From NCBI RefSeq assembly GCF_000325665.1, contig NC_019908.1, positions 1,302,001 through 1,366,000 on the forward strand: DNA of 64,000 nt. Direction: 5' to 3'. Under the pieces are notes generated by a model. That model saw only the letters and a list, made by a program, of their open reading frames with translations, made no database searches and was not told the DNA's origin. The stretch is from Brachyspira pilosicoli P43/6/78. Its GTDB lineage: Bacteria; Spirochaetota; Brachyspiria; Brachyspirales; Brachyspiraceae. Position numbers and translations under genes: made by a program. Below are positions 22,709-22,792 of the stretch, in pieces. Each line of letters starts with the position of its first letter. Position 1 is the stretch's first letter.

Positions 22709-22792
22709 ATGTGAGGAATAACTTGCTTAATCGGTCTGATTATAGCTGGAATTATTGGTTTAATTGATAAAGTGAAAGGAAAAAAAGAATAA
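22709..22792 (+). CDS. Putative 27-residue membrane selenoprotein with UGA as second codon
   Basis: AAGGA, 6 nt, then ATG TGA GGA ATA ACT TGC. The frame then stays open to TAA at 22790. Read with TGA as selenocysteine it gives M-U-G-I-T-C, a hydrophobic stretch (LIGLIIAGIIGLI) and a charged tail (DKVKGKKE). U2 and C6 form a U-x3-C pair next to one short membrane span. No ATG, GTG or TTG follows in this frame before the tail, so without recoding the peptide cannot be made. A SECIS-like hairpin begins 10 nt after the TGA. The gene has its own promoter and terminator. TGA is an ordinary stop elsewhere (aroC). I do not recognise the family. Alternatives: a mutated Cys codon, or an 18-codon frame from the GTG at 22711. 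Confidence 0.7.
22725..22746 (+). promoter_or_regulatory. Bacterial SECIS-like hairpin
   Basis: GCU-UAAUC, loop GGUCU, GAUUA-U-AGC: a 5-bp upper stem, one bulged U and 3 more pairs. Exactly 18 nt separate the UGA from GGUCU, the same distance and loop as in E. coli fdhF mRNA, where the loop G and U bind SelB. In fdhF the bulged U is on the 5' side; here it falls on the 3' side. Confidence 0.68.

Follow-up and report, generated by a model that had tools for sequence, protein, structure and literature searches.

A 64,000-nucleotide (nt) stretch of the gut spirochaete Brachyspira pilosicoli P43/6/78 (NC_019908.1, positions 1,302,001 to 1,366,000; hereafter “the window”) carries at 22709-22792 a very short gene whose second codon is UGA. 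This mini-gene is very probably a selenoprotein gene, a reading we adopt because the gene itself, its conservation, its selenocysteine insertion sequence (SECIS) and the selenocysteine (Sec) machinery of the genome are all supported by the data. The whole of the observations is very likely best explained by a free-standing Brachyspira selenoprotein gene, the product of which would be a membrane micropeptide with a Sec/Cys pair. The features which carry this reading are the following.

22709-22792, plus strand: mini-selenoprotein coding sequence, decoded as M-Sec-GITCLIGLIIAGIIGLIDKVKGKKE, 27 residues and TAA; found in 17 of 26 genomes as 14 distinct sequences.
22712-22714, plus strand: the codon-2 UGA, decoded as selenocysteine; invariant across all 17 intact orthologues.
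22724-22726, plus strand: Cys6, the cysteine partner of the Sec-x3-Cys pair; the residue is invariant, with both TGC and TGT in use.
22725-22746, plus strand: putative SECIS apical stem-loop; its loop, GGUCU, spans 22733-22737 at a distance of 18 nt from the UGA; folds in 14 of 14 variants.
22715-22765, plus strand: single predicted transmembrane segment, residues 3-19; mean Kyte-Doolittle hydropathy 2.59 over residues 1-19, with Cys substituted for Sec.

The reading frame had been proposed in a first-pass annotation made from the sequence alone, and it stands as described there: ATG TGA GGA ATA ACT TGC TTA ATC GGT CTG ATT ATA GCT GGA ATT ATT GGT TTA ATT GAT AAA GTG AAA GGA AAA AAA GAA TAA, with 25 sense codons between TGA and TAA (TGC at codon 6 and GTG at codon 22). 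No in-frame ATG, GTG or TTG precedes the GTG at codon 22, and the frame thus cannot be translated without recoding, as that annotation had also argued. Finding one ATG-TGA frame of such a length in AT-rich DNA would carry little weight; the mini-gene rises above chance because the ATG-TGA, the frame, the length and the hairpin are exactly conserved in 17 genomes.

To place the gene within the genus, all 26 available Brachyspira genomes were searched at the DNA level, and the matches were extracted and translated. An intact single copy is present in 17 of them, amounting to 14 distinct DNA sequences and 10 peptides, and a pattern search allowing two mismatches or fewer returned exactly one full match in each of the 17; elsewhere in the genus the same pattern gave only two unrelated hits, with two mismatches each. 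Codon 1 (ATG), codon 2 (TGA), codon 3 (GGA) and codon 6 (Cys) are invariant in all 17, and codon 28 is always a stop, TAA or TAG, so that every intact copy encodes 27 residues without a single indel. The GITC and GLID segments predicted to be conserved are indeed kept, as GIxC and GL(I/F)(D/E)-type segments. Outside the hairpin (codons 3-6 and 13-27) the 14 sequences give a proportion of synonymous differences (pS) of 0.478 and of non-synonymous differences (pN) of 0.143, a pN/pS of 0.30, and the variable columns in codons 13-27 number 7, 4 and 12 at codon phases 1, 2 and 3. To judge from the alignment, this is the pattern of protein-coding evolution, also 3′ of the UGA. Within the hairpin, at codons 7-12, pS is only 0.10 despite an ordinary hydrophobic peptide, and these codons are near-frozen at synonymous sites because they are doubly constrained, by the peptide and by the SECIS.

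That hairpin, which the first-pass annotation had not reported, provides the strongest evidence of all, in that its loop and its spacing are identical to those of fdhF. It folds as UAAUC-GGUCU-GAUUA, and in 14 of 14 variants the UGA and the start of the 5-nt loop are 18 nt apart; the loop reads GGUCU, GGGCU or GGGUU and sits on an apical stem of at least 5 bp. The published bacterial SECIS (bSECIS) model asks for a loop of 3-9 nt with a G in its first two positions, a distance of 16-37 nt from the UGA, a stem of 4-16 bp and an energy of -7.5 kcal/mol or lower (PMC13188914); all 14 variants conform in loop, G position, spacing and stem. The SECIS of Escherichia coli fdhF (formate dehydrogenase H; NC_000913.3) likewise has GGUCU, the first G of which also follows the UGA at exactly 18 nt, but there the UGA is codon 140 of a gene for a large enzyme rather than codon 2 of a 27-residue peptide, the stem sequence differs, and the stability is -14.2 against -6.7 kcal/mol.

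The machinery to read such a signal is in place. The window genome encodes selA, selB, selC and selD, the four genes that the first-pass annotation had asked for: the tRNA-Sec gene (G000:C1:301041-301128) lies with selA and selB in one minus-strand cluster, and selD is at 1793973-1794890. A tRNA-Sec scored above the cut-off in 25 of the 26 genomes, and every one of the 17 that have the mini-gene intact is among these; the remaining genome is an assembly 86% complete, from which the mini-gene is also absent. Other selenoproteins occur alongside. The thioredoxin-like Sec.1 and Sec.2 have been described in Brachyspira (PMC5330540), and the pair is present in the window genome with UGA codons at L132:1067 and L132:1437. 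Like the mini-gene these are short selenoproteins of the same genus overlooked by annotation, but they are soluble thioredoxin-fold proteins in a three-gene cluster and have no sequence likeness to the peptide described here. GrdA (glycine reductase selenoprotein A), encoded with a TGA in 11 of the 26 genomes, uses the same, nearly universal machinery but is a large soluble protein; glycine reductase was considered as a partner and rejected, since GrdA and the mini-gene are not distributed alike (in 11 genomes the mini-gene occurs and GrdA does not).

The gene is not universal in the genus: in nine of the 26 genomes it is absent, decayed or internally deleted. The 3′ half alone is left in G015 (L086:540-602), the start and the UGA are broken in G011 and G004, and G018 (L087:1012-1082) has suffered an in-frame 12-nt deletion between the UGA and the hairpin, which removes GIxC and shortens the distance from UGA to loop from 18 to 6 nt, a natural spacing mutant. 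That the 3′ end stays where the start, the UGA, the SECIS or the spacing has been lost fits a gene that would depend on Sec insertion.

Several observations weigh against this interpretation. The hairpin of the window allele, at -6.7 kcal/mol, is weaker than the -7.5 of the bSECIS model, a cut which 10 of the 14 variants pass and four, the window allele included, miss; dinucleotide-shuffled sequences fold nearly as well; and no compensatory pair changes are found in the apical stem among the variants, where the stem barely varies. The case for a SECIS, a comparative one, rests on conservation, loop identity and spacing, and folding energy is no part of it. The expectation that codon 2 would be TGA or a cysteine codon was borne out in its first half, with TGA in 17 of 17, while a TGT or TGC homologue was found neither in the genus nor in the sample from the phylum. 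Cysteine-containing homologues are the usual support for selenoproteins but do not strictly define them, and some confirmed selenoproteins have none. Finally, neither the sequence nor the neighbouring genes prove a redox or metal-related role, to which we would give somewhat less than an even chance.

The distribution of the mini-gene is narrow. When 84,980 species, each represented by one genome, were scanned for the exact pattern, nine Brachyspira loci came up, among them those of B. innocens, B. alvinipulli and B. hampsonii, along with two matches that are unrelated and due to chance; a profile search across 393 genomes from the phylum gave convincing matches in Brachyspira only. The weak profile matches in other members of the phylum (E about 0.004-0.008) have neither the start nor the Sec and were set aside, as were pattern matches in Moraxella, a metagenome-assembled genome of Acidobacteria and four viral contigs, which have neither peptide likeness, nor ribosome site, nor length in common with the mini-gene and are attributed to chance. 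Searches of plasmids and phages returned no relatives of the mini-gene, and searches of Pfam, NCBIfam, PHROGs and the PDB none of its peptide; a Pfam LapA_dom match (E 0.18) was dismissed as a generic helix. The impression that the peptide is unlike known selenoproteins is borne out by a catalogue from 2026: of its 119 prokaryotic selenoprotein families, none consists of 27-residue single-helix peptides with Sec as the second residue (PMC13188914). No prior description was found in the literature searched, the scope of which excluded preprints and most subscription papers. By these comparisons, the mini-gene represents a predicted new family of tiny selenoproteins spread across Brachyspira; its novelty lies in how small it is, in Sec being the second residue and in the product being a membrane peptide, and its decoding follows a mechanism already known.

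The signals around the gene, for which a promoter, a ribosome site and a terminator of its own had been claimed, are as follows.

22651-22678, plus strand: sigma-70-type promoter TTGACA-N16-TATACT, from a promoter scan, with 11 of 12 consensus matches.
22674-22690, no strand assigned: 17-bp dyad ATAC-N9-GTAT overlapping the -10 region, a putative operator, in 15 of 17 distinct orthologous promoters.
22698-22702, plus strand: ribosome-binding site AAGGA, 6 nt 5′ of the ATG, read from the sequence; AAGGAG in most relatives.
22793-22833, plus strand: inverted repeat CCCCG...CGGGG followed by seven T, a likely terminator read from the sequence, beginning directly after the stop.

Promoter and ribosome site hold up, and the promoters of relatives have TATAAT at the position equivalent to the -10 of the mini-gene. 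The terminator is a likely one: the repeat and T-run can be read directly, and a comparable CCCCG hairpin lies downstream of the mini-gene in many relatives, but the terminator scan did not list it, because that scan admits only loops of 3-8 nt. In the window the gene is flanked by aroC (chorismate synthase), whose end lies 54 nt upstream of it, and by an amidohydrolase-like gene in convergent orientation. At least five gene neighborhoods occur across the species; upstream there may be aroC, a HAD-family phosphatase gene, two McrB-like genes or another gene (MKSYRKV...), the downstream genes differ too, and the following gene is convergent in nearly all contexts. Because the neighbors change while the promoter dyad travels along, the mini-gene is most likely an independent unit, neither a leader nor a member of an operon; for the same reason a search of the neighborhoods for a partner gene yielded none.

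Of the 17 distinct upstream sequences 15 have the dyad; among control GTATAWT sites the figures are 32 of 585 and 2 of 83. Across the whole window genome it occurs at 26 sites, against 25 for a control pattern, and an attempt to define a regulon from the dyad alone was dropped on this account. The same ATAC-N9-GTAT is also found upstream of the first UGA gene of the Sec.1/Sec.2 pair (L132). The promoter of a coenzyme A (CoA)-disulfide reductase gene (NF007123, 708.8 bits) carries the dyad as well (ATACTACATATAGGTAT) in six relatives (L098, L099, L101, L106, L107, L108), and these promoters are up to about 86% identical to that of the mini-gene. In its form ATACC-N7-GGTAT the dyad resembles operators of the CsoR/CstR type. 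A CsoR/CstR-family domain (Pfam model) is encoded in 23 of the 26 genomes, mostly in frames of similar length, and in both copies read (L148:1110-1731, with the CsoR part at G000:C1:1878156-1878389, and L152:1497-2106) it sits behind a rhodanese domain recognized from the sequence, a combination which suggests a possible persulfide-sensing regulator. The three genomes without the domain (G001, G003, G019) also lack the mini-gene, for which the probability by chance is about 0.03 if shared ancestry is ignored. Regulation of the mini-gene by a CsoR/CstR-like protein through the putative operator is a lead only, and the peptide is perhaps thiol- or persulfide-regulated.

The layout of the gene has consequences for its decoding. 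SelB with Sec-tRNA(Sec), bound to the hairpin 18 nt downstream, would decode the UGA at the very first elongation step: with AUG in the P site of the initiating ribosome and UGA in the A site, SelB would have to win immediately. Without selenium, termination would follow after one residue and no peptide would be made, an all-or-none readout of selenium supply. The predicted product has 27 residues and a single membrane helix, with Sec2 and Cys6 near the N-terminus and a basic tail; by the positive-inside rule the Lys-rich tail would be cytoplasmic and the Sec/Cys end would lie at the outer face (N-out). Removal of the Met ahead of the Sec is plausible, as Sec is about as small as Cys. On a helix Sec2 and Cys6 fall at 200 and 240 degrees and the small residues 9, 13 and 17 at 180, 220 and 260 degrees, and because all five share one face the helix probably packs against another copy of the peptide or against a partner. 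We tentatively suggest selenol/thiol redox exchange, or binding of a soft metal or chalcogen, by an oligomer or by a subunit of a membrane protein.

Other explanations for the locus have to be weighed. That it is an artefact (a sequencing error, a pseudogene, or UGA read as Trp) is scarcely credible in view of the identical TGA in 17 separate assemblies, a frame under purifying selection and a SECIS following the UGA. Nor does it appear at all probable that AUG-UGA is a regulatory start-stop, or the locus a selenium-sensing leader RNA with a hairpin, in which the downstream codons would not be protein; the AUG-UGA and the hairpin are certainly the best-conserved nucleotides, but codons 13-27 have the third-position bias, a pN/pS of 0.30 and a common stop position, and with the next gene convergent nearly everywhere, and a hairpin and T-run often following, there is nothing to lead.

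More serious are the alternatives which accept the peptide and differ over what it does. It may be a selenium-gated small hydrophobic regulator or type I-toxin-like peptide, acting by insertion into the membrane or by binding a membrane enzyme, with Sec mainly a gate or anchor. In size, single helix and charged tail it is similar to small membrane regulators and type I toxins (peptides of the KdpF, CydX and TisB type, none of which, to our knowledge, contains selenocysteine), and the patchy presence, losses and shifting neighbors within the genus would suit such a role; it is nonetheless rather unlikely, since a pure gate would not call for the invariance seen at both Sec2 and Cys6, the minus-strand promoter match at 22715-22686 is weak (9 of 12), and no Rfam antitoxin RNA family was found. 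A little more plausible, yet still doubtful, is a peptide serving mainly as a ligand of a metal, metalloid or chalcogen (Cu, Hg, Se, sulfane sulfur) and not as a redox catalyst: a U-x3-C pair at the surface of the membrane looks soft-metal-like, and the likeness of the dyad to CsoR/CstR operators and the joint absence of domain and mini-gene point the same way, whereas the link to a regulator is putative, the dyad count hardly exceeds its control and the co-absence in three genomes could reflect shared ancestry.

Taking the selenoprotein gene as the preferred reading, a more speculative extension, which we consider possible but improbable as a whole, is a new class of selenium-gated membrane micropeptide in which the Sec may become N-terminal after removal of the Met, placing a surface selenol beside a free amine, and which, controlled by a CsoR/CstR-like regulator and alongside CoA-disulfide reductase, would serve the homeostasis of thiols, sulfane sulfur or selenium. 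If true, the micropeptide would be among the smallest selenoproteins known.

The methods of selenoprotein prediction considered here are trained either on protein homology or on the 100-300 nt that follow the UGA (PMC12013277), and selenoproteins this small are easily overlooked because of such training and because gene finders open no frame at AUG-UGA; the mini-gene suggests that a whole class of tiny selenoproteins lies hidden. It also indicates that elongation can begin with Sec in a natural gene, and would provide a compact natural test of the competition between SelB and release factor 2 directly after initiation. For Brachyspira itself, where GrdA was not seen in 15 of the 26 genomes, the mini-gene may be a further reason to retain the Sec machinery.
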